NCBI RefSeq assembly: GCF_900109785.1
Contig: NZ_FOBH01000002.1
Location: forward strand, 62,001 to 126,000
Source of the DNA: Nitrosovibrio tenuis
Lineage (GTDB): Bacteria; Pseudomonadota; Gammaproteobacteria; Burkholderiales; Nitrosomonadaceae
DNA length: 64,000 nucleotides
Reading direction: 5' to 3'
The notes under the pieces are model-generated. The model did no database searches. It saw only the letters and a list, made by a program, of their open reading frames with translations, and had not been told where the DNA came from. Of the stretch, positions 26,976-48,885 are shown piece after piece. Each line of letters opens with the position of its first letter. Position 1 is the first letter of the stretch. The position numbers and the translations under genes were made by a program.

Positions 26976-27256
26976 TTCAATAGCGGCAACCAGTTTAATT
27001 GTGCCACTTTTTGGGATCCGGCTGATCAGTGGTGCCCCGGGCAGGCTTGCGCCAGCGCCAGCATAAGAATTGGGATTGAGCCTGAAAGCCACCGCCGCGC
27101 CGCCGAAGGCAGCCTGCGACAATTCATGCGGGCCCAGTTCATGCAGCGCAGTATCATACCTTCACCAGCCACCCGCACGACATTGCCCGCCATCAGGGCT
27201 GCCAGCAGCCTGTGCCGAACAAACTCATACTCCAGTGATTCAAGAAAAAAATTTAT
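26976..27256 (-). pseudogene. Decayed metal ABC permease (locus A)
   Basis: A frameshifted, truncated copy of the permease whose intact form is at 47763-48620. From 27256 downward one frame reads NFFLESLEYEFVRHRLLAA, matching EFLLEPLEYEFFRHGLLAA of the intact gene. After a shift near 27120-27140 another frame reads SQAAFGGAAVAFRLN and then SRIPKSGTIKLVAAIE, matching SHAAFGGAVVGFMLN and NRITKNGEIKLDAAIG. Homology ends near 26976, about a third of the way through the protein. The ATG has become ATA. It overlaps the end of the ATPase gene, as expected of an operon binding protein-ATPase-permease. The gene cannot make a working permease. Confidence 0.88.
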
Positions 27257-28079
27257 CGCGGGTTTTTCGCCGTGGGATGAGCGGTGTGCTATTGGCAATC
27301 AGGAGGTGGTCTTCATGTCTGACTATGGCGATATCCCCACCGTAGGTTTTCTTCAGGATGTCGGGGGTAAAAATATCGTGGGGATGGCCTTGCGCCACCA
27401 CTCCATTATTGAAACAGATTATCCAGGGAAGATGTGAAGCGACGGTGTTGAGGTCATGGGTGGTGAGTAAAACGGTAATCCCCTGACTGTTGATATCATT
27501 AAGCAGATGCAATACCTCATGCTGAGTCTTGATGTCGACACCCGAAGTCGGTTCATCCAGCACCAGTAACGCCGGATTGTTCACCAATGCTCTCGCGAGG
27601 AAGGCGCGTTGCCGCTGACCACCTGAAGTATTCGATATGTGTTTATGCAAGCAGGGATAGATACCCAACCTGTTAGCCAATTCACGAACAAGCGCACGCT
27701 CTTTTTTATTGGGCCAGGGCCAGATTCGTTTGTTGGTGTAGAAGCCCATCATGATGACTTCTTCAACGGTAACTGGAAAATTCCAATCCACCGTCTCCAA
27801 CTGCGGCACGTAACCAATCGTACCTGCCGGAATCGCGTCCACAGCCTGACCGTTTAGAAACACCTTGCCAGCCAGGACGGGCTGGGTACCTAGAATGGTT
27901 CTCAGGAGTGTGGTTTTGCCACATCCCGTGGGTCCCACGATACCTACGAACTTGCCACCGTCGATGTCCAGTGACAGATCGGAGAAAACGATATGATGAC
28001 CGTAGCCAGCGGTGACCTCATTCAAGCTGACCGCGGAGTGCGCCTGGAACTCAAGGCTTGATATTGCTGGCGTCGACAT
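27240..28079 (-). CDS. Metal ABC transporter ATPase (ZnuC/MntB type, locus A)
   Basis: ATPase of a cluster-9 metal importer (zinc, manganese, iron or possibly nickel); 279 residues. Walker A GPTGCGKTT (49-57), Q-loop VPQLETVDW, signature SGGQRQRAF (152-160), Walker B LLVLDEPTSG (171-180) and H-loop LLTTHDL are intact. The start overlaps the binding-protein gene by 29 bases. The tail beyond about residue 265, RRKTRDKFFS, reads into what was the start of the permease gene. Because the adjacent permease is ruined, this subunit has no partner here; the intact paralogous permease at 47763 is a likely one. Confidence 0.92.
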   Translation of the reverse strand: MSTPAISSLEFQAHSAVSLNEVTAGYGHHIVFSDLSLDIDGGKFVGIVGPTGCGKTTLLRTILGTQPVLAGKVFLNGQAVDAIPAGTIGYVPQLETVDWNFPVTVEEVIMMGFYTNKRIWPWPNKKERALVRELANRLGIYPCLHKHISNTSGGQRQRAFLARALVNNPALLVLDEPTSGVDIKTQHEVLHLLNDINSQGITVLLTTHDLNTVASHLPWIICFNNGVVAQGHPHDIFTPDILKKTYGGDIAIVRHEDHLLIANSTPLIPRRKTRDKFFS

Positions 28080-29016
28080 TTGTCATACAACTGGAGTTGC
28101 CGCCCAGCGCCCCGGTCATGACAACCAGGTTATTTTCCATCATCCCAATGAATGAATGCTTAGGTGGGGCGGGTAATTCGTCATCCGAAAGTTGATCGAT
28201 AAACCTGACGCCGGTTTCGCGAGCGATCTGTTCCATCACCTTGCTGGGAAAAACGTCGGAACCGAAAATTGCGGGCACCTTTTCTCGTTTTATCTGTTTG
28301 ATGATACGTATGACTTCCTGGGGCCTGGGTTCGGAAAAATTCGATGGCTGAATCGCGGCAATCACCGTCATGCCATAACGGGGGGCGAAATATGCGAAGG
28401 AATCGTGATAAGTGACCAGCTTGCGGTTCTTCTCCGGGATGGATTTGACGCAATCAAAGACAGCGTTGTCCAGTCTGCGCAACTTGTCCACATACAACTT
28501 CATATTGGCACCATACCCCTCCTGGTGTGCCGGATCAAGTGCGACGAGACTATCGTGGATAATCTCCGCATAGCGCATCGCCAATGCAATGTTGGGCCAC
28601 AGGTGCGGGTTGGGGTGGCCAAGCTCACGGGGAAAGCTGTTGTCATATCGCCAATCTTCCCTGCGCAATGCAAGGTTTCCGAGCTGCACAATCGGAGTAT
28701 TGGTCGTTTTAACTTTTTCCGCCAATTTAACGGTAGGCAGCTCAAGATCCAGGCCATTGACAATAATGATGTCGCTGGCCCCCAATAATCTGGCAATGGC
28801 TGGGGTTGGCTCAAACGTATGAGAATCGGTTCCATTAGGAACGATTCCAGTTACATTGACATAGCCCATGCCTATATTCTGAACAATATCGGTGATGGGT
28901 GCTACGGTGGTTACAACATTAATTTTTTTGTCAATGTGCGTGGATTGGGCTACGCTGGAAATAGACAGGGTTATCAGCAGAAATACAGACTTGAGGGCAA
29001 ATAGGACTGATTTCAC
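28051..29016 (-). CDS. Metal ABC transporter substrate-binding protein (ZnuA family, locus A)
   Basis: Periplasmic metal-binding protein of the cluster A-I type; 321 residues, GTG start at 29016 after AAGAA. Sec signal peptide about 1-24 without lipobox. Three His at ligand positions of the family: His66 in TDSHTFEPTPA, His138 in NPHLWPN and His204 in YHDSFAYF; an acidic fourth ligand is expected in the ...QLSDDELP region. The His-rich loop usual in strict zinc-binders is missing. Metal is not certain: nikR and a TonB receptor lie next door and urease needs nickel, but zinc or manganese remain possible. A truncated, deleted copy of this gene is at 47486. Confidence 0.9.
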   Translation of the reverse strand: MKSVLFALKSVFLLITLSISSVAQSTHIDKKINVVTTVAPITDIVQNIGMGYVNVTGIVPNGTDSHTFEPTPAIARLLGASDIIIVNGLDLELPTVKLAEKVKTTNTPIVQLGNLALRREDWRYDNSFPRELGHPNPHLWPNIALAMRYAEIIHDSLVALDPAHQEGYGANMKLYVDKLRRLDNAVFDCVKSIPEKNRKLVTYHDSFAYFAPRYGMTVIAAIQPSNFSEPRPQEVIRIIKQIKREKVPAIFGSDVFPSKVMEQIARETGVRFIDQLSDDELPAPPKHSFIGMMENNLVVMTGALGGNSSCMTNVDASNIKP

Positions 29017-29033
29017 GATTCTTTCTGTTTAAA

Positions 29034-29058
29034 TATTATTTCACGAAGTATAAATATG
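29034..29058. promoter_or_regulatory. Candidate metal-regulator operator, locus A
   Basis: Reads TATTATT, eleven bases with TCACGAA, then AAATATG. A related string (TATTG, TCACGAA, then ATAAAAT) lies upstream of nikR at 31711-31732. The layout TATTATT-N11-AAATATG partly follows the Helicobacter NikR box. It ends 18 bases from the GTG of the binding-protein gene. Tentative. Confidence 0.35.
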
Positions 29059-29305
29059 CCTGGATATGACCGGGTACGTTCACTTTTCCATAACCGGCAA
29101 TGCCATAATCGACAATGGAAACGGCTTTCCCTCGGCTACCCGTCAGCTGTTATTTCGCGCAGCAATGTTATGTAAATCTGCTGGCCGCTTAAGCTGCTGG
29201 ATTTGCCCGCTGGACTTCACCGCTGAATTTCACCATACCAACCCATCACTCTTTCCCGACGCTTCATAAATCCAGGAAAGCCTATCATTAAACCCGATGG
29301 CGAGG

Positions 29306-29346
29306 ATGTAGGGGATTCCTGACGGGATCTTCACTTATCCCTACAT
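29306..29346. promoter_or_regulatory. Inverted repeat upstream of the TonB receptor
   Basis: Perfect arms ATGTAGGG (29306-29313) and CCCTACAT (29339-29346) with a 25-base spacer. It may be a protein-binding pair or a long-loop hairpin. It does not match a regulator site known to me. Confidence 0.35.
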
Positions 29347-29601
29347 TATGTTTCGGCATTACCCGACAGATATTCCGGTTATCTGTGTCGTATTCTTGCC
29401 CAAATTGCAAACCACACAACAACAAGGGTTTTTTTGCGAAAGGGGTATGAAAAATTGGTAATTCTTCTTATTTCTACGGGTTTCCAAAACTCATCCAGAA
29501 ATTTATCCTTAAATCAGTGAAATGGCTTGAGGCAGGATCACATCTTGAATCAAGCCGCACGATTCCGGGCGCGTTACGGCGCTTGTTCAATTCGCACAGA
29601 T

Positions 29602-31650
29602 ATGCTGCGAATAATATTGATACTCGCCGGGATGATTTTGCCGCCGGCGACCCAGGCGGCGGGTATTCCGACACTTAATGAAGTGATTGTGCGGGCTGAC
29701 GGGGACAGGATTAATAAACTGATCGGAATGGCGAATTCCGCCAATGAGGGCACTGTTCTCAAGCAACAGCTCAAACAGCGCACTGTTTACCGTCCTGGAG
29801 AATTACTGGAAACTGTACCAGGATTGATCGTCACCCAGCACAGCGGTGAGGGCAAGGCTAATCAGTATTTCGCGCGCGGCTTTAACCTGGATCATGGAAC
29901 CGATTTGAGAATAACCGTGGATGGCATGCTGGTTAACCAGCGTTCGCACGGGCATGGACAGGGTTACTCCGACCTCAATTTTTTGATACCCGAGCTTGCT
30001 TCCAGCCTCCAGTACCTTAAAGGTCCGTACTACGCGGATCAGGGCGACTTTTCATCAGCGGGCTCGATCAATATGGGCTATGTAAATAAGCTGCCAGCCG
30101 GGATCGCCAGCTTTGGTGTGGGTAATCAGGGATTCCTCCGGGGGCTTGTTGCCAATTCACACGATCTGGGAGCGGGTACCGTCCTGTATGCCGCTGAATT
30201 GAACACCAAGGACGGTCCGTGGATCACCGCGGAAAATTTCAAAAAATTCAATGCAGTATTGCGCTATAGCCAGAACACCGGCGATACCCGGTTCAACATC
30301 ACTGCGATGGGCTATGGTGCGAGATGGAACTCCACCGATCAGATTCCCCTGCGCGCCGTGGCGAGCGGCCTGATTTCACCTCTTGGCGCAATTGATCCAA
30401 GCGATGGCGGTAAATCGCACCGTTTCAGCTTGTCCGGAGCGTTGCAGCACGCGAGTGGCTACGGGATTACCAAGGTCAATCTTTATACGATGCATTCCGA
30501 TCTCGCCCTATTTTCCAATTTCACCTATTTCCTCGATGACCCGATCAACGGAGACCAATTTTCGCAGGTCGACAAGCGCTTCCAGTCCGCGATGAATCTC
30601 AGCCACGCATGGGTAAACACCTTTGCCGGCTTTGCAGTTGAGAATACCGTCGGTGCCCAGTTCCAGAATGATGTGATCGATAATGGCCTGCTGAATACCA
30701 AACAACGCCAGACATTGTCGATCACACGCAAGGATCACGTGGTCGAAAACAGCGTGGGATTTTATTACCAGAACAGCGTGCAATGGATGGAAAAATTTCG
30801 TAGCGTAGCCGGAGTACGCACCGATCTTTATTGGTTCGATGTCAATAGCGACAATAGCGCCAACTCCGGCAAACGATACGACGATATAACCAACCCCAAG
30901 CTCAGCCTGATCTTCGGACCATGGGCCAAAACTGAATACTATCTTAACTACGGCGGCGGGTTTCATAGCAACGACGCGCGAGGCACCACTACCACCATCG
31001 ATCCGAAATCCGGCGAGCCGGTAGGCAGGGTGAATCCGCTCGTGCGTTCCACGGGATATGAAGCCGGGCTGCGTACCGCCATCATCCCCGGCCTGCAGGC
31101 ATCGCTCGCATTTTTTCGCCTTGACCTTGCTTCCGAGCTGCTATTCGTTGGGGATGCCGGGACGACTGAACCCAGCCGTCCCAGCAAACGCGAGGGTGTG
31201 GAAATTTCCGCCTTCTATATGCCGAATAGCTGGCTGACGGTGGACGTGGATTACGCGCTGGCGAAGGCACGCTTTACCGGCTCGGATCCCGCTGGAAACC
31301 ACATTCCAGGCGCTATCCAGGGCGTGGGCAAGCTGGCCATTGCCATAGACAATCTCGGTCCCTTCTTCGGCAGTATGCAGCTTCGCTATTTTGGTAAACG
31401 CCCGCTGGTGGAAGATAATAGAGTTCAGTCGGATAACACCGTGACACTTAACGGCCAGTTCGGGATCAAGGTTGGGAAAAAACTGCAAGTGGTGTTGCAG
31501 GGGTTTAATCTGCTGAATACAAAAGCACATGCGATCGATTATTTTTATACATCGAGACTGCCAGGAGAGCCGGCTTCGGGTGTGGCCGACAAGCATTTCC
31601 ACCCGATTGAAAGCCGCTCATTCCGGGTCAATCTGGTAGCCAATTTTTAG
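29602..31650 (+). CDS. TonB-dependent outer-membrane receptor
   Basis: Outer-membrane active transporter of 682 residues from ATG 29602, chosen because it gives a clean signal peptide ending ATQA; the frame is open upstream to 29527 but without a clear ribosome site. Plug domain about 20-160 with RPGELLETVPGLIVTQHSG, YFARGFNLDHGTDL and VDGMLVNQRSHGHGQGY, whose His could bind a metal; then the 22-strand barrel, ending in the terminal Phe of RVNLVANF. Directly followed (98 bases) by nikR, and divergent from the metal-binding protein, so it probably takes up a metal or metal complex. Nickel is the leading guess, given nikR and urease, but no ligand can be proven from sequence. Confidence 0.88.
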   Translation: MLRIILILAGMILPPATQAAGIPTLNEVIVRADGDRINKLIGMANSANEGTVLKQQLKQRTVYRPGELLETVPGLIVTQHSGEGKANQYFARGFNLDHGTDLRITVDGMLVNQRSHGHGQGYSDLNFLIPELASSLQYLKGPYYADQGDFSSAGSINMGYVNKLPAGIASFGVGNQGFLRGLVANSHDLGAGTVLYAAELNTKDGPWITAENFKKFNAVLRYSQNTGDTRFNITAMGYGARWNSTDQIPLRAVASGLISPLGAIDPSDGGKSHRFSLSGALQHASGYGITKVNLYTMHSDLALFSNFTYFLDDPINGDQFSQVDKRFQSAMNLSHAWVNTFAGFAVENTVGAQFQNDVIDNGLLNTKQRQTLSITRKDHVVENSVGFYYQNSVQWMEKFRSVAGVRTDLYWFDVNSDNSANSGKRYDDITNPKLSLIFGPWAKTEYYLNYGGGFHSNDARGTTTTIDPKSGEPVGRVNPLVRSTGYEAGLRTAIIPGLQASLAFFRLDLASELLFVGDAGTTEPSRPSKREGVEISAFYMPNSWLTVDVDYALAKARFTGSDPAGNHIPGAIQGVGKLAIAIDNLGPFFGSMQLRYFGKRPLVEDNRVQSDNTVTLNGQFGIKVGKKLQVVLQGFNLLNTKAHAIDYFYTSRLPGEPASGVADKHFHPIESRSFRVNLVANF

Positions 31651-31710
31651 GCCCTGGCGCAATTTGTAAAAATGATAATGAGCTGCGAAACGGATCCTGA
31701 TCAATATAAA

Positions 31711-31732
31711 TATTGTCACGAACGAATAAAAT
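31711..31732. promoter_or_regulatory. Candidate operator before nikR
   Basis: Shares TCACGAA with AT-rich flanks with the site before the locus A binding-protein gene (29034-29058). It ends 16 bases before the nikR start, a good place for repression. A GATAATGAG string at 31673-31682 a little further up resembles half a Fur box. Tentative. Confidence 0.3.
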
Positions 31733-31748
31733 CTAGGAGCAGGTAAAC

Positions 31749-32210
31749 ATGGAACGACTCACCATATCGCTTAATGATCAGCTCGCCAAGCAGTTTGACG
31801 GTGTCATACATAAGCGCGGTTATTTCAATCGGTCCGAAGCCATGCGTGATTTGATACGGGATCTGCTTGAAACCGTCCGCCTGGAAGAACACGGGGAAGG
31901 TCACTGTATTGCCACGCTCAGCTATATATACAATCATCATGAAAGTGAACTGGCCAGCTCCCTTACTTCGGCGCAGCACGATCATCATGACCTTACGCTA
32001 TCCAGTATGCATGTCCATATGGATCATGATAATTGCCTGGAAGTAACCATCCTGAGGGGCTCTATCAAGGATGTAAAAAATTTTGCCAATCATATTATTG
32101 CCACGCGTGGGGTACGGCATGGCAAGCTGCATCTGTTGCCCGTGGAGATCGTACAAGAGCGGCACTCGCCTGATTCTACGCCGCATGTTCATAGCAATCC
32201 CCTTTCGTGA
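31749..32210 (+). CDS. nikR: Nickel-responsive regulator NikR
   Basis: Ribbon-helix-helix repressor that binds DNA when loaded with Ni(II); 153 residues. The N-terminal RHH domain is MERLTISLNDQLAKQFD and NRSEAMRDLIRDLL; the ACT-like metal domain holds His77, His88, His90 and Cys96 (SMHVHMDHDNC), each exactly one position after the E. coli ligands His76, His87, His89, Cys95. The protein is somewhat longer than usual, with a His-rich tail (HSPDSTPHVHS). Lies 98 bases after the TonB receptor on the same strand. Likely targets in the window: itself, locus A and locus B, where an E. coli-like operator occurs. Confidence 0.95.
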   Translation: MERLTISLNDQLAKQFDGVIHKRGYFNRSEAMRDLIRDLLETVRLEEHGEGHCIATLSYIYNHHESELASSLTSAQHDHHDLTLSSMHVHMDHDNCLEVTILRGSIKDVKNFANHIIATRGVRHGKLHLLPVEIVQERHSPDSTPHVHSNPLS

Positions 32211-32419
32211 CGTATGCAAGTACGCAACGCCAGCACGACGTGGTGGTCTTTTAACTCGTTATTGCACCGAAAAATGAGGGTGCCCCAAAATTAGAGTGAG
32301 CATTTCGCACTTTATGGAAGTACTTCTGTCCGTGTCGGTTTGGCATATACGTTCACGGTGCTCCATGGCAGTTGTTGCATCCAACAGTTACGACCCCAAA
32401 ATGGACACTGCATGATCAT

Positions 32420-33784: not shown

Positions 33785-34125
33785 CGAAGTATTCCCCTGC
33801 GAAGATAAAAATATTCTTCGCCCCGATCAGGGGCATTCAAGCTGTCGGGACGCCAACGCCACCCGCTCGGGCGCTCCTGTATTCAGATAGCTTTGCGGCG
33901 ATAGATCGAGGATATGAATGTTGAACGGGAGGCTGAGCGTCAGGAAAATACCGGTGACCCGAGGGGTAATAAAGGTCAGTGTACCCAGGGGGCATCTGAA
34001 TCTGAGTCAGATTAAAAAACACGGGTCATGGCACTTCTACCTTCACCTTCGCCCTAGTTCAGTTACTCATCAGCGTCGCGAAAAGGTGATATGCGAATTG
34101 GCTCTCAGCCGTTTATTTTTTTCAA
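33785..34125. other. 341-base gap with two inverted repeats
   Basis: No gene. Holds CGAAGA-N9-TCTTCG at 33800-33820, 16 bases before the start of the TAXI gene, and a 15-base palindrome at 33999-34013. Either may be an operator. Confidence 0.4.
33999..34013. promoter_or_regulatory. 15-base palindrome AATCTGA-G-TCAGATT
   Basis: Perfect seven-base arms around one central base, with six A directly after it. About 215 bases upstream of the TAXI gene start. Looks like a binding site for a dimeric regulator; which one is not known. Read on the minus strand, a T run lies before, not after, the arms, so it is not a terminator for that strand. Confidence 0.4.
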
Positions 34126-34315
34126 TTACGTGCCTTTGTGCATCGCAACATGGCCAGTTTTGTCGCGCTTGATTTCCTATTGCGGCTCATGCTCGATCGC
34201 GTGATGTGTAGCCCTTGTAAACAACTTCGTTATGTGAACCTTGGTATCTTTTATCGATGTACCCAGCCTTCGAGTTCCAGCTCACGTGATCACCAACTTC
34301 GAACTTGTGCGCCAT
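34126..34315 (-). pseudogene. Broken DUF2945 (HVA1/Tudor-like) gene
   Basis: From ATG 34315 the minus strand reads MAHKFEVGDHVSWNSKAG then EVVYKGYTSRD before a stop. In another frame it goes on EHEPQ, stop, EIKRDKTGHVAMHKGT, stop. Intact DUF2945 proteins read FKVGDKVxWNSEAG, then a xxxYKGYT and end DEPQYEIKSDKTDHxAxHKG, so the match runs over the whole length. There is one frameshift near the TSRD, a TAG in place of the usual Tyr codon, and loss of part of the middle. Function of intact relatives unknown. Confidence 0.85.
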
Positions 34316-37671: not shown

Positions 37672-38291
37672 GTTTTCCCTTAATGCCTTGTCCGGTTGTT
37701 CCTGTTGTTCCTCTTGCTCGCTTATCCTGTTAAATCAGAGCCGCTTTTCCTGCTGTAATCCTGTTTCCCAATCACGATCATTCTGAATCCGGTAGCTGGA
37801 CAGGTGGCGTGTGCCGCTTTTGACCGCAGAGCAGGGCGCAAGGATACCGAATGTTCGCGAATTCAAGGCAGAGAACAGCTGGATCAAGCACATGTATGCA
37901 CTATCCAGGAGCGCGGCAGTATCACATTTCATGCGTCAGGAAGGTTTTGGGGTGGTCGCGCAGCCTGGTTGCCGGAATTTGACAGGATCATCCTGCAGCT
38001 AGGCATTCAAGGCTCATAGCAATCGGTCAATATTTTCGCGCCATTATGCCGTTGGGCTATATCCCGCAGACCACCGACGTCGCCTTCTTTATTGTTCCCT
38101 CTGGCAGGCGCCCGGAATTTTCCCAAAGCAAAGTAGCGGGTTGCAGCCCATCTCCAATCATCGTTCGTAATACATATGGACAAATCTTCTTATACAAAAT
38201 TTTCAAACTGTGGATATTTTCTAGTGACTCACATCGCAAACCCCTGCATGATTATCCCACTCGACTTACGAACTTAAAAAAGAAATTAGCG
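37672..38291. other. 620-base gap between the sensor kinase and the porin
   Basis: Divergent control region. A plus-strand frame (37811-38002) reads TAEQGARIPNVREFKAENSW and then IKHMYALSRSAAVSHFMRQEGF, which recalls the C-terminal helices of glutathione S-transferases; if real, it is a fragment without a thioredoxin domain. No promoter can be assigned with confidence. Confidence 0.35.
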
Positions 38292-39638
38292 ATGAATAAT
38301 TTGGGCAAAAAGATGGATAAGGTGGCCAGCTACGAATCAATGGCGGCTCATATTTCACAAAAAAATGACTTCGGTAAGCAAGGGAAAAATTTCTTTGCCC
38401 GCGTAGCGTTGGGTGCCACACTGATAGCCGGTTGTGCGTCTTTATCACCTATGGCAAGGGCAGCGGAGCCGGACTTCAAGGTTCCGAATGGGCCTAAGTA
38501 TGCAATCGATGACACCGTGTGGGTGAAGGTGGGCATGGGTTTCCGCGGTTCGGGCCGATGGGCGGAGAACAAGGCGGCGGATCGGTTCGATGGGCGATTC
38601 CTCATCGACAATGCCCGTCTCTACGTCAACGGGCAAGTCCATAAATATGTCAAGTTCGAACTCAATACCGAATGTTTTTTCTGCGACAACACTCATCCCG
38701 GCGATAACCCCAGGATGTCGTATAACATCCTCGACGCAATTGGGAAATTGGAGTTTAACAGGTACTTCAACGTCTGGGGCGGACGCATGTTGGTGCCTAC
38801 AGAGCGGGGCGAACTGAGTGGTCCTTTTTACCAGGCCACACATGATGCCTTCAAGACACCCTTCTTTTCGCAGGACTTCAGCGTCAAGTTTGGCAACGGC
38901 GGAGCCGGCCGCTACGGCCGTGACGATGGCGGCACTTTCTGGGGAAGTGTTGAACCGGGCTTCATCAAGGGCACGCTGGGTTATGCGGTGGGCGTATACC
39001 AAGGATTGCAATCCAGCCAGGGATTCGGACCCAATCAAGGCAATAATGTTCTCTGGGCGGGCCGCTTCACCTACAATTTTTTGAATCCCGAGAAAAATCC
39101 GGGCTATTACACCAGCAGTACCTACTTTGGAAAGGCCGGCGATATCCTGGCGCTGGCGTTCGGCGCCTCATATCAGAAAGACGGCGCCGGTTCGTTTGCT
39201 CATCGAAGTGACTTTCTCGGGCTCGTCGGCGATGCGCTTTTCGAAAAAGTGTTGCCCAGAAATTTAGGGGTGGCCACGGTCAACGCTGAGTACAAGCAGT
39301 TTTACGCCAATTACTCCACAGCCGCGTTTGCCAATTCCGACTGTTTTTGCATGTTTGACGGAAAATCATGGACAGTCACCGGGCTGTATCTGATACCGGT
39401 CAAAGTCGGAATTGGAAAGTTCCAGCCCTATGGGAGATTTACCAGCGTTCAACCCAATCACAGCAGTAATCGGGAAGAAATCGAGGGTGGCGTGAACTAT
39501 ATCATCGACGGCTTTAATGCCCGTATCTCGGCGTACTACCAACACGGGGATCTTTTTACCAAGGGTTTGAATTACGCACCCACGGTAACGGGAGACAAGG
39601 TCGACGTTTTCAAGTTGTCCTTCCAGTTGCAAATGTAA
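38292..39638 (+). CDS. Outer-membrane porin with Cys pairs
   Basis: 448 residues from ATG 38292; the frame is open upstream to 38046, and the next ATG (38313) is possible. A long N-terminus precedes a hydrophobic stretch with cleavage after ARA (about residue 57). The rest has the alternating pattern and aromatic girdle of a 16-18 strand porin, ending in FQLQM. Features: a GRFLIDNARLYVNGQVHKYVKF strand pair as in phosphate-type (OprO/P) porins, and two odd Cys pairs, ECFFCDN and DCFCMFD. Placed 92 bases upstream of ureD on the same strand, it may help urea or short amides cross the outer membrane, as was shown for FmdC of Methylophilus. That link is inference. Confidence 0.8.
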   Translation: MNNLGKKMDKVASYESMAAHISQKNDFGKQGKNFFARVALGATLIAGCASLSPMARAAEPDFKVPNGPKYAIDDTVWVKVGMGFRGSGRWAENKAADRFDGRFLIDNARLYVNGQVHKYVKFELNTECFFCDNTHPGDNPRMSYNILDAIGKLEFNRYFNVWGGRMLVPTERGELSGPFYQATHDAFKTPFFSQDFSVKFGNGGAGRYGRDDGGTFWGSVEPGFIKGTLGYAVGVYQGLQSSQGFGPNQGNNVLWAGRFTYNFLNPEKNPGYYTSSTYFGKAGDILALAFGASYQKDGAGSFAHRSDFLGLVGDALFEKVLPRNLGVATVNAEYKQFYANYSTAAFANSDCFCMFDGKSWTVTGLYLIPVKVGIGKFQPYGRFTSVQPNHSSNREEIEGGVNYIIDGFNARISAYYQHGDLFTKGLNYAPTVTGDKVDVFKLSFQLQM

Positions 39639-39730: not shown

Positions 39731-40669
39731 ATGTATCTGATTCCTCGTTCTGAAGACGCACTGATAATGCGGGATACCGCCTCGGTTCATCACCTATACC
39801 CTGCGCAGCATTCATCGGTTCCCGCTCCGGGCCAACCGCATACCCCGCTGCAGGCGCGCCTTTCCCTGAAATTCGTGGAGGATGGTGGCGCGACCCGGTT
39901 GACGGAGCGCGACCATTTTGGCCCTCTGATCGTGCAAAAACCGCTTTATCCGGAAGGGCGAGAGATTTGCCAGGTAGTCATCGTACATCCTCCGGGCGGA
40001 GTCGTGGGTGGGGATCAGATGGAAATCGCAGCCAAGGTTGGCGTGGCGGGAAAAGCGCAACTCACCACTCCGGGTGCTGCCAAATGGTATAAGGCCAACG
40101 GCAATATTTCACGTCAGAACATAACCCTGGACGTGGGTTCAGGCGGTTCGCTTGAGTGGCTTCCCCAGGAAACCATTTTTTTCGATAACGCACATGTCGA
40201 GCTGGAACATAGCGTAACGCTGGGTAAAGAAGCAAGCTATATCGGCTGCGAGATTTTATGCTTCGGCCGTACCGCATCGGGGGAATCGTTCAATGGCGGT
40301 CAGATCTGCCAGCGTATCGGCATCCGCCGCGATGGTAAATTGATCTGGTACGAACAATTAAGGTTATCGGGCGGCAGCCCGGCAATGCGAAATCCGCTTT
40401 TGCTCGCCGGTCGCACGGTTTGCGCCACGTTGATTGCCGCGGGCCCAACCGTTTCCGCAGCAGTACTGGAGGCAGCACGCGAAGGTGCAGCCGGAATTGC
40501 AGTTGACGGAGGTGAAGCCCGTATTTCCCAGTTAAAAGGGCTAGTGGTCGCGCGTTACCTGGGTAATTCAAGCCAAACGGCGCGGCGAGTAATGCTGGAT
40601 GTCTGGAGCCATCTCCGGCCGGAGATGCTGGGCCGCAAGGCGGTGGTGCCGCGCATTTGGAATACATGA
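39731..40669 (+). CDS. ureD: Urease accessory protein UreD
   Basis: Part of the UreDFG complex that inserts nickel in urease; 312 residues. Marks: PLQARLSLKFVEDGGATRLTER, the block VVIVHPPGGVVGGDQMEI, TTPGAAKWYKANG, WLPQETIFFDNAHVE and GRTASGESF. The start used gives some 30 residues more than most UreD; ATG 39767 is an alternative. No strong ribosome site is seen before either. First gene of the urease operon in transcription order ureD-ureA-ureB-ureC-ureE-ureF-ureG. Confidence 0.95.
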   Translation: MYLIPRSEDALIMRDTASVHHLYPAQHSSVPAPGQPHTPLQARLSLKFVEDGGATRLTERDHFGPLIVQKPLYPEGREICQVVIVHPPGGVVGGDQMEIAAKVGVAGKAQLTTPGAAKWYKANGNISRQNITLDVGSGGSLEWLPQETIFFDNAHVELEHSVTLGKEASYIGCEILCFGRTASGESFNGGQICQRIGIRRDGKLIWYEQLRLSGGSPAMRNPLLLAGRTVCATLIAAGPTVSAAVLEAAREGAAGIAVDGGEARISQLKGLVVARYLGNSSQTARRVMLDVWSHLRPEMLGRKAVVPRIWNT

Positions 40670-40812
40670 TGTTGCGTGCCGGCATCATGCGAAAGAGGTA
40701 CCGCTTTGAAAGAGGTACCGCTTTATATATATGGATGTATTTATCACCTACTGGCCACCCGAAATGGCCACCCGAAACCGAACAATCATCTAATTATTGA
40801 GGAGGGAAGCAA

Positions 40813-41115
40813 ATGGACCTTACACCAAGAGAAAAAGACAAGCTCCATATATTTACCGCTGGGTTACTGGCGGAAAGACGCAAGGCGCGCGGCTTGCGGC
40901 TCAATTATCCGGAAGCGGTCGCGTTGATTACCTGCGCAGTGCTTGAAGGTGCGCGTGACGGCCATACCGTGGCCGAGCTCATGGCGGATGGGAGGAAGGT
41001 GCTGACCCGTTCCGATGTGATGGAAGGCATTCCGGAGATGATCCCCGACATCCAGGTCGAAGCGACGTTCCCCGATGGAACCAAGCTTGTGACCGTGCAC
41101 AATCCTATTCCTTAA
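40813..41115 (+). CDS. ureA: Urease gamma subunit
   Basis: 100 residues, the usual length for a separate gamma chain. Starts [20 protein letters not shown] after a strong GAGGAGGG site. Conserved [21 protein letters not shown] and [21 protein letters not shown]. Forms the (alpha-beta-gamma)3 enzyme with ureB and ureC. Confidence 0.98.
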
Positions 41116-41131
41116 ACACCAGGAGATTACG

Positions 41132-41455
41132 ATGGCCAGAATACCAATGATACCAGGAGAAATATTCGCGCAACCCGGCGATATCGAGCTCAATGCTGGG
41201 AGAAAAACCAGGACACTGACTGTTTCCAATGGCGGTGACCGTCCCATACAGATCGGTTCGCATTTTCATTTTTATGAAGTCAATTCCGCGATGAAATTCG
41301 ACCGGGAGGCCGCATATGGCATGCGCCTGAATATTATGGCGGGTACCGCCGTACGCTTCGAACCGGGCCAGGAACGCACTGTTGAACTCGTCGAGCTTGC
41401 GGGAAACCGGGTGGTTTACGGATTCAATCAGAAAGTGATGGGCAAACTGAAGTAA
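41132..41455 (+). CDS. ureB: Urease beta subunit
   Basis: 107 residues. Marks: [18 protein letters not shown], the conserved [11 protein letters not shown], and [19 protein letters not shown]. Only 16 bases after ureA, with AGGAG before the ATG. Separate gamma and beta chains are the usual bacterial arrangement, unlike the fused form of Helicobacter. Confidence 0.98.
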
Positions 41456-41497
41456 TAAGATCATGACAATGTCCCAATCTGATAAAGGAGCAGAAAA

Positions 41498-43204
41498 ATG
41501 AGTTTAAATATTTCCCGCCAGGCCTACGTTGAAATGGTGGGCCCCACGACCGGTGATCGCATTCGCCTGGCTGATACGGAACTTATTATCGAAATCGAAA
41601 AGGATTTCACGACTTATGGGGAAGAAGTGAAATTCGGTGGGGGCAAGGTGATCCGCGATGGCATGGGCCAGTCCCAGGGTAATCACGCGGATGTAATGGA
41701 TACCGTCATTACCAACGCGGTGATCGTAGACCACTGGGGTATTGTAAAAGCCGACGTGGGCTTGAAGGGCGGCAAAATCGCTGCAGTCGGTAAAGCCGGA
41801 AATCCGGATATCCAGCCCAATGTCACGATGTTGATCGGGGCGGCAACCGAAATTATTGCCGGTGAAAACATGATTCTTACCGCTGGCGGTATCGACAGCC
41901 ACATCCACTTCATTTGTCCCCAGCAGGCGGAGGACGCAATGATGAACGGCATCACCACCATGCTGGGTGGTGGCACGGGACCGGCGGTTGGCACGGCCGC
42001 CACTACATGTACCCCCGGCCCCTGGCATATCCATTCGATGCTGCGGGCGTCGGATGGCATGGTGATGAATACCGGCTTCTTCGGCAAGGGCAACGTCAGC
42101 CTGCCGGTTCCGCTGGAAGAGCAAATTCTTGCCGGCGCTTGTGGCCTCAAGCTGCACGAAGACTGGGGCACGACCTATGCAGCCATCGACAATTGCCTGA
42201 ACGTTGCCGATAAATACGATATACAGGTGGCGATTCATACCGATACCATCAATGAAGGCGGCTACCTGGAAAACACGATTGCCGCGATGAGGGACCGGAC
42301 CATACATACTTTCCATACGGAAGGTGCCGGGGGTGGGCACGCGCCGGACATCATTGCGGTCGTGGGTCAGGAAAATGTCCTCCCGTCTTCCACCAACCCG
42401 ACCCGGCCCTATACCGTCAATACCCTGGATGAGCACCTGGATATGCTGATGGTGTGTCACCACCTGCACGCCAACATAGCCGAGGATCTTGCGTTCGCGG
42501 AATCGCGCATCCGCAAGGAAACCATTGCGGCTGAGGATATCCTGCACGATATGGGTGCCATTTCGATGATGTCATCGGATTCTCAGGCAATGGGCCGTAT
42601 TGGGGAAGTGGTCATACGTACCTGGCAGACTGCCCACAAGATGAAGATACAGCGCGGCACGCTGCAGGAGGACACATCCAAAAACGATAATTTCCGCATC
42701 AAGCGTTATATCGCCAAGTACACGATCAATCCGGCCATTACCCACGGGGTGTCTCACGCAATTGGCTCCGTCGAGGTGGGCAAATACGCTGACCTCGTCT
42801 TGTGGCGCCCCGCCTTTTTCGGTGTCAAGCCGTCGATGATCCTGAAAGGTGGAATGATTGCGGCATCGTTGATGGGAGATCCCAACGCTTCCATTCCGAC
42901 TCCGCAGCCGGTACATTACCGCTACATGTTCGGCGGATACGGTGGGGGTATCAAAACATCCTGTTTCACGTTTACCTCGCAGGCGGCAATCAACGCGGGC
43001 CTGGTCGATAACCTCAAGCTGGACAAGAACCTGATTGCGATCAAGGACACGCGCAATTTACGCAAGAAGGACATGATACACAACGGTGCCACGCCCAAGA
43101 TGGAAGTCGATCCCGAAACCTATGAGGTGCGGGCCGATGGGCAGCTTCTGACGTGCGGGGCAGAAGATGTCCTGCCCATGGCACAGCGGTATTTCCTGTT
43201 TTAA
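41498..43204 (+). CDS. ureC: Urease alpha (catalytic) subunit
   Basis: Cytoplasmic nickel enzyme that splits urea into ammonia and carbamate; 568 residues. The binuclear nickel centre ligands are present: His135 and His137 in [12 protein letters not shown], the Lys218 to be carbamylated in GLKLHEDWG, His247 in AIHTDT and His273 in [10 protein letters not shown]. The mobile flap [10 protein letters not shown] has Cys320 and His321. The catalytic Asp lies in [11 protein letters not shown]. All known active-site residues are intact, so the enzyme should be active once nickel is supplied. Confidence 0.99.
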
Positions 43205-43211
43205 AGCCGCC

Positions 43212-43742
43212 ATGCTTACCTTGAATACGAAAGTAGCGCATGCAGACGTGGTTTCCGCGCAGCTTGTTTTACCCTATGAGCTGCGCGAAAACAGCCGCCT
43301 GCGTACGAGGCTCGCGTCAGGGGAAGAAGTCGCGATTTTTACTGCCCGAGGTACGGTATTGCGCAACAATGATCTGCTCAAGGGCGACGATGGGCGGGTG
43401 GTAAAAATTGTGGCGGCGGAAGAGCCCACTTATAGGATTACTTGCCATTCGCCGCACGATTTGCTGCGCTGCGCATTTCATCTGGGTAACCGCCATACTC
43501 AGACGCAGGTGGGCGACGGATTTCTACGAATTTACCAGGATAGCGTGCTGAAGGAAATGCTTGAAGGATTGGGAGCGACCGTGGTGGAAGAAAGTGCGCA
43601 ATTCGAACCGGAAGCGGGTGCCTACAGCAGTGGAGGCCATCATCATGGTGGCGATGATCACGGCTACTCCCATTCCCATGGTCCCTTGGCCCCGATACCG
43701 GTGCATCAGAAAATCCATCGTCCTTCTGACCCTAAACCTTAA
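43212..43742 (+). CDS. ureE: Urease accessory metallochaperone UreE
   Basis: Delivers nickel to urease; 176 residues from ATG 43212, seven bases after the ureC stop. N-terminal domain with LVLPYELRENSRLRTRLASG, then the metal-binding domain with the conserved His in CAFHLGNRHTQTQVG. The C-terminal tail is His-rich (SGGHHHGGDDHGYSHSHG), able to hold several nickel ions, as in the Klebsiella protein. Confidence 0.96.
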   Translation: MLTLNTKVAHADVVSAQLVLPYELRENSRLRTRLASGEEVAIFTARGTVLRNNDLLKGDDGRVVKIVAAEEPTYRITCHSPHDLLRCAFHLGNRHTQTQVGDGFLRIYQDSVLKEMLEGLGATVVEESAQFEPEAGAYSSGGHHHGGDDHGYSHSHGPLAPIPVHQKIHRPSDPKP

Positions 43743-43751
43743 TCAATCGCA

Positions 43752-44429
43752 ATGCAATCGACCGCGCTCCTTCGCTTATTGCAATTGGCAAGCCCGTCGC
43801 TGCCCGTCGGCGCTTATACGTATTCGCAGGGCCTCGAGGCTGCCATCGAGGCAGGTATGGTCAAGGACGAAGATTCGGCGCGGGGCTGGATAGTCGAATG
43901 GCTGGGAGTGGCTGCGGATTTCGAGGCCCCGATCCTCTGGCGGCTGCTGAAAGCCTTTTCAGCGCGAGATTTGGAAGCGGTGACGTTCTGGACCGAACGC
44001 CTGGTCGCGGGTCGGGATACTGCCGAATTTCGCGCGGAAACCCTGCAGATGGGTTATTCGCTGGGCAAGCTGGTGGTGGATCTCAAGATCGCGGACGACG
44101 CATTGCTGGAGATCCTTGCCAGGCAAGTGGAAATTCCATTGCCGACCGCGTTTGCGTGCGCCGCGGAGGCGCTGGGCGTCCCACATGAAAACGCGCTATT
44201 GGGGATGTTGTTCTCATCGGCCGAGAATCAAGTGCTCGCATGCGTCAAATCCGTTCCGCTTGGGCAGTTATCCGGTCAACGCGTTCTGCTTTCCCTGCAT
44301 TCCACTATCGAACGGGCGGCTTTGCAAGCGCGGAGCCTGATGGATGATGAATTATCCAACTGGGCGCCGGGGTTGTCGTTGTTCTCGATGCGCCACGAAA
44401 CACAATATAGCCGCATCTATCGATCTTGA
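43752..44429 (+). CDS. ureF: Urease accessory protein UreF
   Basis: 225 residues, all helical; brings UreD and UreG together and keeps the nickel-insertion step faithful. Marks: LLQLASPSLPVGAYTYSQGLE at the start (in pieces SPSLPVGAYTYSQGLE), ARGWIVEWL, ETLQMGYSLGKL and the C-terminal LFSMRHETQYSRIYRS. Nine bases after ureE. Confidence 0.96.
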   Translation: MQSTALLRLLQLASPSLPVGAYTYSQGLEAAIEAGMVKDEDSARGWIVEWLGVAADFEAPILWRLLKAFSARDLEAVTFWTERLVAGRDTAEFRAETLQMGYSLGKLVVDLKIADDALLEILARQVEIPLPTAFACAAEALGVPHENALLGMLFSSAENQVLACVKSVPLGQLSGQRVLLSLHSTIERAALQARSLMDDELSNWAPGLSLFSMRHETQYSRIYRS

Positions 44430-44449
44430 ATTGACTGGAGTTGAAAACG

Positions 44450-45109
44450 ATGAATAAACAATCGAATCCCTCGAATCCTTTAAGAGTCGGAATCGGCGGA
44501 CCCGTCGGTTCGGGCAAGACGGCGCTATGTGAAGCATTGAGCAAAAAGATGCGCGACCGCTACGAAATGGCTGTGATCACCAACGATATCTATACCAAAG
44601 AAGACATGGAAATTCTGTTGCGCGCCAATGCGCTGCCCGCCGAACGCCTCATGGGGGTGGAAACCGGCGGGTGCCCGCATACGGCAATCAGGGAAGACGC
44701 GTCGATCAACCTGGAGGCGATCGCGCGTATGACAGCGGATTTTCCTGATCTTGATCTCATCCTGGTCGAGTCCGGGGGGGACAATCTTGCCTCGACTTTC
44801 AGCCCCGAACTTTCCGATCTCACCATTTATGTGATTGATGTTGCTGCCGGTGAAAAAATACCCCGGAAGGGCGGGCCCGGCATTACGCGCTCAGCGCTGC
44901 TGGTCATCAACAAGATCGATCTCGCGCCGTACGTAGGAGCAAGTCTGGAGGTAATGGCACGCGACGCAAAGAAGATGAGAGGAGAACGGCCGTTCGTATT
45001 TACCAATCTGCATACCGGGGAAGGCGTTGACCAGATCGTCGATTTCATCGTGAAACAGGGATTATTGGACGAAGTAAAAAAGAAAAAGGCGGAGGAGGCG
45101 TCACAGTGA
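44450..45109 (+). CDS. ureG: Urease accessory GTPase UreG
   Basis: SIMIBI-class GTPase that powers nickel insertion; 219 residues from ATG 44450, with GGAG ten bases upstream (a TTG three codons earlier is possible). P-loop [11 protein letters not shown], the nickel-binding CPH in [36 protein letters not shown] and G4 motif INKIDLAP. Ends the ureDABCEFG run; no terminator is clear before the urea transporter gene 114 bases on. Confidence 0.98.
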
Positions 45110-45223
45110 CTGCATCGGGGGTAAACCCAGGATTTGGTTTCTGCCATGGATAGGCGAGTAATTTACTTGTGCTGCCGCTAAGAAAAGAAAGCGTTACATA
45201 ACAAACTTTTGGAGCCAACCACC

Positions 45224-46183
45224 ATGGACTGGTCGTTGAAAATCGATGAAGCACTTCCCCGTCCTCTGCGCACGATCCTGAGGGGCGTGGGCCAGGTATT
45301 TTTTTGTTGTAATGCGGTGACGGGTTTCATCTTCCTGGTAGCGCTTTACATCGGTGGCCTTACTGCGGGGGCCGCGGCAACCGTGGGGGTTATCAGTAGT
45401 ACCGTTGCAGCCTATCTTCTCGGCTTCTCAGAAGATGACATCGATGCGGGTTTATATGGTTTCAACGGGACGCTGGTTGGGCCTTGCCTGTTCCTGTTTC
45501 TCGAGCATTCTCCGCAGCTCTGGTTATATGTCGTGCTAGCCTCGATATTGTCGAGCATCGTGTTGGCGGCCTTCATGAGAATTCTTGCGCCCTACAAAAT
45601 TCCCGCCTCCACATCCCCATTCGTATTAACCAGCTGGATGTTTCTGGTCGCGGTATATGCTTTCGACAGCTTTTCGCGCGGCCCCGTTTTGCCCCCACCC
45701 GGGCTACCTTCGGCGGTAACAGGTGCAGGACCCGTTCCGGCTGATATGTGGTTTACTGCCCTTACAAAGGGCGTCGCTGAGGTGATGTTTGCGGACAGTG
45801 TTATCGTCGGTATTTTGTTTTTGACCGGCATTGCGATCGTTTCCTTGCGCGGTGCGCTCATGGCGGCTTGTGGCGCCATTGTGGGAGTGGTTATACCGAT
45901 CCTGCTGGGTGCGAATCAAAACCTGATCGAAATGGGGTTATACGCGTTCAACCCGGTTTTAACGATGATGGCGGTCGGTTGGGTTTTCCTCAAACCGAGC
46001 GGAAGGAGTGCTGCGCTGGCGCTTCTGGCGGGTATTTTAACTGTGGTGTGTCAGGCTGGTCTGGCGAATTTTCTCGCGCCGATAGGTTTGCCGACCCTTA
46101 CCTTTCCGTTCGTCCTCACGATGTGGATGTTCCTGTTCGCGGCAAGCATGTCCAAATACTGGTCCGATCCCTCCGTCAAATAA
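45224..46183 (+). CDS. Urea transporter (UT family channel)
   Basis: Inner-membrane urea channel of 319 residues from ATG 45224 (GGAG eight bases upstream; TTG 45209 is an alternative). About ten helices in two homologous halves. The selectivity motifs are readable: YGFNGTLVGPCLFLF in the first half and YAFNPVLTMMAVGWVF in the second, each with an LPxxxxPF-like loop (ASTSPFVL and LTFPFVL). UT channels move urea passively, so uptake would follow hydrolysis by the urease encoded just upstream. Clearly part of the urea-use locus. Confidence 0.93.
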   Translation: MDWSLKIDEALPRPLRTILRGVGQVFFCCNAVTGFIFLVALYIGGLTAGAAATVGVISSTVAAYLLGFSEDDIDAGLYGFNGTLVGPCLFLFLEHSPQLWLYVVLASILSSIVLAAFMRILAPYKIPASTSPFVLTSWMFLVAVYAFDSFSRGPVLPPPGLPSAVTGAGPVPADMWFTALTKGVAEVMFADSVIVGILFLTGIAIVSLRGALMAACGAIVGVVIPILLGANQNLIEMGLYAFNPVLTMMAVGWVFLKPSGRSAALALLAGILTVVCQAGLANFLAPIGLPTLTFPFVLTMWMFLFAASMSKYWSDPSVK

Positions 46184-46315
46184 AACAGATCTCTCTACCG
46201 GATGCCGCGCTGTGATAGTGTTTAGCGTTTTCGCCCAGCACTAGCGAATTTCAACGCGGTATTCCGGCAGTCTGACGGAGTCATTAACTCCAGATGAGTG
46301 CAGGCATCGCCCGAA

Positions 46316-47080
46316 TCAGGCGACCAGATCGACCTTCCCCGTTTTGAGGCTATATACTCCCCCGACTATGCGAATTTTCTTGTCTGACACCAATCTGCTC
46401 AGAATAGGGGGTTGGTTCCTCAGCTTATCCACATTGCGGATGACGTTCATTTTGACCACGTTCCCAAAACGTTCGCCCGGCATCGCTTTAGCAGCCCTGA
46501 CTGCTGGCGCGAGCGCGCTCGCCAGAGCCTGAATATGCCCCGGAAACTGTTCATTTTTGTCAACGGCATCAATGGCCGCTGCCACAGCACCACAGCTTTC
46601 GTGCCCCAATACCATGATCAGCGGCGTATGCAATAGGGCAGCGGCATATTCGAGCGTGGCCACAAAGTCCGTGGTTAAATAATTGCCCGCCACGCGGGCA
46701 ACAAACAGATCACCGCGTTGCTCGTCAAAGCAGAATTCGGGGCCCACTCGCGAATCCGAGCAACTCAAAATACTGGCATATGGGTTCTGTCCCTGTACCA
46801 GGGCGGTTCGATCTTCAGCGAAATTCAATGGCCTGGACTGGCCGCTGACATAGCGCTGGTTCCCCGTCATCAGCCTTTCCAGAGCTTCGTCAGCCGTCAT
46901 CACATTTTCGGGCAGAGGCGGTATTTTCATTTTTGCGGCAGAAGCCGTCCTTCCGACCATTCCGGCGATACCCATGCCAAGAGCAGAGCCTGCGGCAAGC
47001 CTCAAAAACAGGCGTCTACTGCTGGATTTCCCATGCGGTCTTTCGTTTTCCCTGTCGTCCTCAACGCGTATGTTGCACAT
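46316..47080 (-). CDS. Tat-exported beta-class carbonic anhydrase
   Basis: Zinc enzyme interconverting CO2 and bicarbonate; 254 residues. The N-terminus has a twin-arginine signal (SSRRLFLRLAAGSALGMG, Arg22-Arg23, ending about residue 48), so it is folded in the cytoplasm and moved to the periplasm. Zinc ligands and dyad: Cys107, Asp109, Arg111 in LSCSDSRVGPE and His160, Cys163 in LGHESCGAVAAAI. Convergent with the urea transporter. In an autotroph that obtains CO2 from urea, a periplasmic enzyme could trap CO2 that leaks out or help bicarbonate/CO2 supply and acid balance; this role is inferred. Confidence 0.93.
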   Translation of the reverse strand: MCNIRVEDDRENERPHGKSSSRRLFLRLAAGSALGMGIAGMVGRTASAAKMKIPPLPENVMTADEALERLMTGNQRYVSGQSRPLNFAEDRTALVQGQNPYASILSCSDSRVGPEFCFDEQRGDLFVARVAGNYLTTDFVATLEYAAALLHTPLIMVLGHESCGAVAAAIDAVDKNEQFPGHIQALASALAPAVRAAKAMPGERFGNVVKMNVIRNVDKLRNQPPILSRLVSDKKIRIVGGVYSLKTGKVDLVA

Positions 47081-47485
47081 GGCCGAATCAAGTCATTGGT
47101 TTTACTATGAGGATGCTGAGTAGAGGCATGCTGCGTCCAGTTGGTCTCATATCAGATCGCGTCGGAGCGATTGATACAGTCGCGCACATAAACTCGTCAA
47201 ACTGGTGGCAGAGCCGATTGTCCAGCGATATGGCGTTCCCTATTTGAACGATGGCAAGGGACTGAGACCTTTGTAAAACACGATTATATACGTCTCATTC
47301 CCGGGTTATTCAATATTCCTCAATATACCGCTACCCCATGCCAGCATTTTGATTTCACGGACGCCGTGAGGCGAAAAGATAGGTATCTGCGGACATAACG
47401 CCGCCCATGCGAAAACCGCCAGAAAGAGGAGTATGGATGTCTACTGCTGTATAGTATGAGATACTTTAAGCTCTTCATACTCATC
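47081..47485. other. 405-base gap upstream of locus B
   Basis: Between the carbonic anhydrase start (minus) and the locus B fossil gene. One plus frame (47192-47398) stays open for 68 codons and reads protein-like in part, but has no start codon and no family I know. The 3' end carries the NikR-like operator (47454-47480). Confidence 0.4.
47454..47480. promoter_or_regulatory. NikR-like operator before locus B
   Basis: Inverted repeat GTATGA (47454-47459), 15 bases, TCATAC (47475-47480), extended one base on each side (A and T). The E. coli nik operator is GTATGA-N16-TCATAC, and even the spacer here has a similar ATACTTTAA core. The spacer is one base shorter than the E. coli site. It lies five bases before ATG 47486, ideal for repression. 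nikR itself is in the window at 31749. Confidence 0.65.
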
Positions 47486-47752
47486 ATGAAAACGATGAGA
47501 TCAATCCGGCTTTTCATCAGGTTTTCGTTGTTGCTGTTAGCCCTGTTTTTGTGGGAGCCGGCTTATTCTACCGGTTCAGGCGAAAAGGTTGTCGTCGTTA
47601 CCTCAGCCGCTCCAATTACTAATATTGTCCAGAATGTGGGTGGCGAATACGCCGACGTGACAGGGATCATCGCGAACGGCCTTGGGCTTGACGTGCCCAC
47701 CATGGGTCACTTCCTGATTGCCAATAGCAGGCCCTTGGCATCGCACGGGTAA
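47486..47752 (+). pseudogene. Fossil of a metal-binding protein fused to the end of an ATPase (locus B)
   Basis: An 88-residue open frame from ATG 47486. It starts with a signal peptide (about 1-25) and GEKVVVVTSAAPITNIVQNV, matching KINVVTTVAPITDIVQNI of the locus A binding protein. After VTGIIANG it jumps to LGLDVPT, where locus A has 26 more codons between two NG sites (PNG...VNGLDLELPT). After VPTMG it continues HFLIANSRPLASHG, matching not the binding protein but the tail of the locus A ATPase (HLLIANSTPLIPR). So two deletions are readable: an in-frame loss of 78 bases, and one that removed the rest of the binding protein and nearly all the ATPase gene. The product may still be made, but cannot bind metal. 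Confidence 0.87.
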
Positions 47753-47762
47753 TCAATCGTAA

Positions 47763-48620
47763 ATGGAATTTTTGCTTGAACCCCTGGAGTATGAGTTTTT
47801 CCGGCACGGCTTGCTGGCGGCCTTGATGGTGGGGTCGTTATGCGGGTTAATCGGCATGTTCGTAGTACTGCGGGGCATGAGCTACGTTGGCCACGGATTG
47901 TCCCATGCGGCGTTCGGCGGGGCAGTGGTAGGGTTTATGCTAAATCTGGATTTTTATTCGAGTGCTGGCGCGATGGGTCTGCTGGCTGCAATACTGATCA
48001 ACCGGATTACGAAAAATGGTGAGATCAAACTGGACGCCGCCATTGGTGTGGTTACGACCGCCATGTTCGCCTTGGGTGTGGCGATCATCAGCCAGGTTCG
48101 CACTTTTAACCAGAACTTTGAAGCGGCCCTGTTCGGCAATATCCTGGGTATTACCAACGAGGATTTGCTGATTATCGGTCTGGTCACTGCCTGTGCCATC
48201 GTTTCCATATTATTGTTGTATCGACCACTGCTCTTTTCCACTTTTGATAATGAGGCGGCGCGGATATTTGGCATCAGGACGGAAATGGTACAGTTCACGT
48301 TCTCATTTCTTCTCACGCTTTCCATTATCGCTTCGATGAATGTGGTGGGCGTGACCATGATTGCCGCCACGCTTATTACGCCTGCATTGACCGCCCGCAC
48401 GATGACGGACAGCTTCGGCCGCATGCTGATTTATTCTTTCATCATAGGCGCGGTAACAGGCGTTGGGGGCATGTATCTGAGCTATGTCTTTAACGCCGCT
48501 TCAGGCGCAACCATCGTATTATTCGGCGCGATATTGTTCTGCCTGTCAGTATTGATTAAACGCTGCAGGACGTTGTTGGGCAATCAGGCAGCCAGGCCAC
48601 ATCGACAGGACCTTCGTTGA
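47763..48620 (+). CDS. Metal ABC transporter permease (ZnuB/MntB type, locus B)
   Basis: Intact permease of 285 residues with eight or nine membrane helices. Starts MEFLLEPLEYEFFRHGLLAA ten bases after the fossil gene. Conserved ABC-3 features: GLIGMFVVLRGMSYVGHGLSHA (in part), GVVTTAMFALGVAI, the loop near FGNILGIT and VGVTMIAATLITPALTARTM. The paralogue at 26976-27256 is ruined, so this is the only working permease of the type in the window. Its own ATPase and binding-protein genes were lost by deletion; the complete set needs 27240-29016. Translation may be coupled to the short frame upstream. Confidence 0.93.
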   Translation: MEFLLEPLEYEFFRHGLLAALMVGSLCGLIGMFVVLRGMSYVGHGLSHAAFGGAVVGFMLNLDFYSSAGAMGLLAAILINRITKNGEIKLDAAIGVVTTAMFALGVAIISQVRTFNQNFEAALFGNILGITNEDLLIIGLVTACAIVSILLLYRPLLFSTFDNEAARIFGIRTEMVQFTFSFLLTLSIIASMNVVGVTMIAATLITPALTARTMTDSFGRMLIYSFIIGAVTGVGGMYLSYVFNAASGATIVLFGAILFCLSVLIKRCRTLLGNQAARPHRQDLR

Positions 48621-48824: not shown

Positions 48825-48885
48825 TTTACCTTCGTGAATGACCTATCACATTACATTACGGGAGCTATTCAATGTTTCTCGGCAT

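Follow-up and report, generated by a model that had tools for sequence, protein, structure and literature searches.

Genes of a metal ABC transporter split over two loci around the urease cluster of Nitrosovibrio tenuis, with a probable role in nickel import

The stretch analysed here (the window) comprises 64,000 nucleotides of contig NZ_FOBH01000002.1 from Nitrosovibrio tenuis, a soil ammonia-oxidising bacterium. It holds the parts of an ATP-binding cassette (ABC) metal transporter at two loci, A and B, which lie about 18.5 kb apart on opposite strands, with the urease cluster and a urea transporter between them. From comparison of sequences, we infer that the binding protein and ATPase of locus A and the permease of locus B probably form one nickel importer, after reciprocal loss of the other parts. 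Both loci are on a single contig of 441,940 bases, in a genome of 3.1 Mb that is listed as 100% complete.

Complementary halves of a probable single transporter

The genes and gene remnants of the transporter are as follows.

28051-29016, minus strand (locus A): intact periplasmic metal-binding protein (PF01297, Pfam 225.2 bits, cut-off 29), GTG start
27240-28079, minus strand (locus A): intact ABC ATPase (PF00005, 98.7 bits)
about 26976-27257, minus strand (locus A): permease fossil, about the first third of the gene, frame broken and truncated (tblastn; codon constraint lost)
47486-47752, plus strand (locus B): open fossil reading frame of 88 amino acids, made of binding protein residues 1-61 and about 84-95, followed by ATPase residues about 258-267
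47763-48620, plus strand (locus B): intact permease (PF00950, 228.5 bits, cut-off 20.1), the only full copy in the genome

The permease fossil of locus A matches the locus B permease in two frames (27250-27134 with 54% identity and 27128-26979 with 61%, E 1e-11 by tblastn). It covers about 95 of the 285 codons from the start and then gives way to unrelated sequence. Relative to the intact permease of the window and to five intact permeases of kin, 23-26 of its 94 second codon positions differ, whereas in six pairs of intact genes only 4-7 of 95 do. A sequencing or assembly error, which would have explained the frameshift otherwise, is ruled out by this decay together with the truncation.

At locus B, the fossil frame preceding the permease contains the remains of the two genes that are intact at locus A, and there is no ATPase gene; the ATPase piece is identical to one relative at 11 of 11 residues. 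The original prediction, made from the letters alone, had described both loci in these terms, and open reading frames, tblastn matches and codon constraint at locus A agree with it. The similarity that it reported between the loci at the binding-protein start, the ATPase tail and the permease start is borne out by the fossil matches, and the complementary fossils at the two loci confirm that each lost what the other kept.

The genome offers few other partners for either half. Genome-wide, a single PF00950 permease and a single PF01297 binding protein exceeded the cut-offs, and a search with the binding protein itself added only the locus B fossil. The next-best match to the locus A ATPase is 34% identical, in a genome with 47 stretches matching ABC ATPases. 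A second complete set elsewhere in the genome, on whose absence the original prediction depended, was looked for by family and sequence searches for the three subunits and not found.

Related genomes were compared in a set of 23, the window genome and 22 other Nitrosospira genomes. A full-length permease was found in 17 of these 22, and in all 17 the binding protein, ATPase and permease genes stand together (in G016 the binding protein of the operon is cut by a contig end). The genome search found no permease in G001, G002, G009 and G020, and only scraps in G010. In a second sample of 27 operon loci from named genomes, some of them common to both sets, the three genes were together at 26 loci, the 27th being the scrap of strain Nsp11. 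Undamaged copies of the operon, as sought by the original prediction, are present in these kin. G010 (strain Nsp11; L057/L085), which has no UreC, retains mere scraps of permease and of the nickel-responsive repressor NikR.

One permease, one binding protein, no close second ATPase and an intact operon in 17 of 17 kin together make it most likely that the two halves serve as one transporter. The proposal of a single transporter split over about 20 kb is thus supported by comparison, the distance being about 18.5 kb. The proteins are those of a metal importer, namely a PF01297 binding protein, a PF00005 ATPase and a PF00950 permease with a PsaC-like fold; the usual arrangement in one operon, which is not strictly defining, is absent here, the genes being split. 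The permease model (predicted local distance difference score, pLDDT, 79.9) fits PsaC of 7kyp with a Foldseek E of 4e-18 and template modelling (TM) scores of 0.84/0.87. Its segment FDNEAARIFGI, which we take to be the coupling loop, is nearly identical in kin with the operon at either position, so that it should accept the ATPase of the other copy.

All three intact genes are under purifying selection. Compared with G021, nonsynonymous (dN) and synonymous (dS) divergence were 0.106 and 1.34 for the permease (dN/dS about 0.08; changes at codon positions 1/2/3, 40/19/129), 0.177 and 2.19 for the ATPase (about 0.08; 51/33/139), and 0.168 and 1.28 for the binding protein (about 0.13; 63/43/141); dS above 1 is saturated in places, and the ratios are therefore rough. 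Where the other 24 sequences are invariant, the window differs at 2 of 105 sites (permease), 3 of 114 (ATPase) and 3 of 114 (binding protein); for other members the corresponding numbers are 0-11, 0-4 and 0-8. A long-dead permease at locus A next to constrained partners is what would be expected if a permease encoded elsewhere serves the locus A proteins.

The transported metal

The neighbourhood of the two loci bears on the metal that is carried.

29445-29471 (locus A): weak NikR-type box, 10 of 12 positions, spacing 15
29527-31650, plus strand: TonB-dependent outer-membrane receptor (PF00593, PF07715), divergent from the binding protein
31749-32210, plus strand: NikR, nickel-responsive repressor of the position-A clade (PF08753; NCBIfam NF002815, 198.9 bits, cut-off 83)
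39731-45109, plus strand: urease cluster, ureD, ureC and neighbouring accessory open reading frames (UreD match; UreC over the NCBIfam cut-off; conserved order)
45209-46183, plus strand: urea transporter (PF03253)
about 47181-47231, minus strand: probable scrap of a second NikR gene
47454-47480 (locus B): exact NikR-type box GTATGA-N15-TCATAC, the sole exact site in the 3.1-Mb genome

A NikR gene adjoins the importer genes at locus A. Likewise, NikR is the usual neighbour of the operon in kin, where a TonB receptor and nearby urease are also frequent. The scrap at 47181-47231 stands at the place and in the orientation where kin carry NikR, and it is probably the remnant of a NikR gene of locus B (tblastn, 17 amino acids, 71% identity, E 3e-4, in a search that covered 13 short stretches and in which 4 of the NikR queries matched).

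The exact box occurs at 19 sites in 12 of the 23 genomes, and 14 of these sites are beside a binding-protein gene or fossil. None was found in genomes without urease, and the reversed control pattern gave one site in one genome. Enterobacterial NikR boxes, given as GTATGAT-N13/14-ATCATAC in PMC545781, have the same half-sites and spacing range as the locus B box. In G016 (L141, L051), a binding-protein fragment and an exact box lie at the end of contig C57 by urease, and the operon starts contig C28; the fragment and the operon copy may be one gene or two.

Of the 23 genomes, 18 have the binding protein. Full-length UreC was found in 17 of these 18, including the window genome, and in none of the other five. 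On a three-gene tree, the joint absences of binding protein and urease correspond to five separate losses, all agreeing. Taken together, NikR, the boxes and the link to urease indicate that the transported metal is very probably nickel, as judged from sequence comparison. Importers of PF03824, PF04955 and PF01891 (NiCoT, HupE/UreJ and CbiM-type) were not found in the genome, in a search that did not extend to the NikABCDE and NiuBDE types.

The TonB receptor also adjoins the operon in many kin. No NCBIfam cut-off was reached by the window receptor, for which a nickel role is predicted by analogy: it stands by an importer and NikR, like the TonB-dependent receptors (FrpB4, FecA3 and others) listed for nickel in PMC11247825. 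The receptor next to the operon in G005, G006 and G012 (L042, L043, L047) is a different one, 41-43% identical to that of the window and on a separate deep branch. Upstream of ureD, an open reading frame at 38046-39638 is conserved in the genus; it gave no Pfam match and a weak porin-like NCBIfam match under the cut-off.

Two positions and the history of the copies

Position A adjoins ftsB, and position B is found beyond the urea transporter and carbonic anhydrase; they flank urease in inverted orientation. In six genomes (G003, G007, G008, G012, G015 and G022) the operon is the neighbour of ftsB, as at locus A. In others, including Nitrosomonas, it has the opposite orientation and follows the urea transporter or carbonic anhydrase, like locus B. 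Seven genomes (G004, G006, G011, G014, G017, G018 and G021) carry a pair of full NikR genes, of which one lies on the side of urease where locus A is. The NikR tree was divided into two clades (100/99), the first uniting the window NikR with the NikRs of the six genomes that have the operon at A and with the seven second copies, the second containing the operon NikRs of the others. As these clades are deep, the two positions are old. Copies at two NikR-marked positions across the genus need not stem from one recent local duplication; of the duplicated operon in the original prediction, the two related copies are retained.

A split by simple inversion or translocation is excluded, since each locus contains remnants of what the other retained. 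The split itself is firm. The gene remnants suggest that it most likely arose by reciprocal loss between two related operons that flanked urease in inverted orientation. The copies may be old sisters, or one may have arrived by transfer or copying.

For the second of these histories, the binding-protein and ATPase genes of locus A would have come by transfer from a relative like Nsp2 or N. multiformis, or by copying from B, and displaced the B genes; this would alter the history of the split but not its present form. We regard it as quite possible, without favouring it. The ATPase tree unites the window gene with those of the six position-A genomes and of G016 (96/96; the bootstrap had not settled fully), and the permease tree places the window permease outside the position-A group (95/92). 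A nine-gene tree places the window with genomes whose operon is at B (SH-aLRT, an approximate likelihood ratio test, 98), with an outgroup that was poorly filled and did not hold together. In genomes with the operon at B, no operon remnant was found between ftsB and NikR in five whole intervals, with G018 and G006 examined in part; this suggests that the operon came to position A later. Against this, topology tests reject no alternative (p 0.19 for the ATPase, 0.066 for the permease, 0.37-0.47 for the binding protein), and the depth of the NikR clades makes both positions old. The binding-protein tree leaves the window copy undecided, the three-gene tree leaves the window genome unplaced, and the TonB receptor tree, in which 3 of 20 rows are the different receptor, leaves the window receptor unplaced.

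A rearrangement junction at 48620-48886 was seen downstream of locus B, where the conserved block hsp20-nagZ-acpS-pdxJ directly follows the permease. None of the 17 other genomes that have a full permease shows this adjacency: the distance is 19 kb in G017 and about 0.6 Mb or more in seven others where both share one contig, and in the rest they are on different contigs.

Proposed working of the split importer and alternative explanations

According to the favoured explanation, both positions once held a binding protein-ATPase-permease operon in this lineage and then lost different parts. Position A would have retained NikR, the TonB receptor, the binding protein and the ATPase, and position B the permease. 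Nickel would cross the outer membrane via the TonB receptor and be caught in the periplasm by the binding protein from locus A; the inner machine would consist of two locus B permeases and two locus A ATPases. NikR would repress both loci when nickel is ample, and the imported nickel would serve urease. That the complex assembles, that locus B is expressed and that nickel is the substrate are all deduced from comparison, and the weakest step is locus B expression.

Several observations weigh against this explanation or qualify it. The exact box lies only 5 nucleotides before the fossil ATG, where kin have about 200; a TATAGT overlapping the box recurs in 5 of 6 aligned kin, and the promoter scan gave no plus-strand sigma-70-type match before locus B, nor did inspection by eye reveal a clear ribosome-binding site before 47486 or 47763. 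The locus B permease has a long branch (0.61, versus a median end branch of 0.11), hence it evolves fast, and it is without the His-rich C-terminal tail of several kin (48572-48620). The box at locus A is near chance, because 8 sites as good or better occur within the 64 kb; kin with the operon at position A likewise have boxes of 10 of 12. As to the metal, five pairs of losses cannot go below p 0.0625, and the module and urease are often neighbours, so that one deletion could take both. G014 has only a 40-amino-acid piece of UreC, with contig ends at the expected place of the cluster, so that its urease is uncertain.

The long permease branch and the weak expression signals could also mean that both halves are decaying and no longer cooperate, the intact genes having merely not yet decayed. 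Decay of the module is known from kin, with the scraps of Nsp11 and a binding protein lost in 5 of 23 genomes. We consider this unlikely, since the locus A permease fossil is without codon constraint, yet the ATPase, binding protein and locus B permease are constrained; moreover, this genome retains a full-length urease, and loss of the module in other genomes goes with loss of urease. It is very improbable that the locus A proteins use another permease and the locus B permease another ATPase: the genome is rich in ABC ATPases, but the best of the others is only 34% identical, there is one PF00950 permease, and the presumed coupling loop hardly differs between kin at the two positions. That the transporter operates in the proposed way but with zinc or manganese as its metal is also improbable, slightly more so than the decay of both halves. 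The solved relatives of the binding protein and permease, among the matches listed, are all named for manganese, iron, zinc or an unspecified metal, and in the alignment the binding protein has a His where the manganese and iron proteins YfeA and MntA have a Glu, presumably a resemblance to zinc binders. NikR, the NikR-type boxes and the co-loss with urease speak against zinc or manganese, and no NCBIfam subfamily model for these metals reached its cut-off (AztC 169.4 for 350, MntA 200.8 for 400, AztB 187.9 for 280).

To the proposed importer formed from both loci, a further element may be added tentatively. The fossil frame of locus B is still open after two in-frame deletions and its stop is 10 nucleotides before the permease ATG, so it may serve as a leader. 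Such a hybrid PF00950-type nickel importer, with the frame kept open to bring ribosomes to the permease, is possible but rather doubtful. Codon changes in the binding-protein fossil of this frame are still third-position heavy, a pattern that neither shows decay nor proves present constraint.

The nearest known systems, PsaBCA, YfeABCD and ZnuABC, belong to the same families (PF01297, PF00005, PF00950), as also indicated by the PsaC fold match. They are importers of manganese, iron and zinc, whereas the window system is linked to NikR and urease, is probably for nickel, and is split over two loci. NikABCDE, NikMNQO and NiCoT belong to other protein families than the window transporter. So does NiuBDE, whose genes are dispersed in H. 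pylori. Like the proposed importer, NikABCDE, NikMNQO, NiCoT and NiuBDE supply nickel enzymes, several of them under NikR (PMC545781 and PMC5140060). The Helicobacter NiuBDE is likewise a dispersed ABC importer. According to PMC5140060, niuB and niuD once shared an operon; its available part does not describe paired fossils left by reciprocal loss between two operon copies. In the literature searched, whose coverage is limited, no account of the module or of its split was met, and we make no claim that they are unreported.

The protein families and the evolutionary process are known ones, in an unusually clear state. Automatic family models do not give the probable nickel role and would lead to a zinc or manganese label. 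The fossils of both loci can still be read, and the window is a snapshot of how the operon of a multi-subunit machine can break apart without the machine being lost. The case allows a test of ATPase and permease exchange between diverged operons, and it bears on how a lone permease keeps the metal control that its partners have. In addition, it suggests that ammonia oxidisers have a nickel uptake module belonging to the zinc/manganese ABC type and linked to their ability to use urea.

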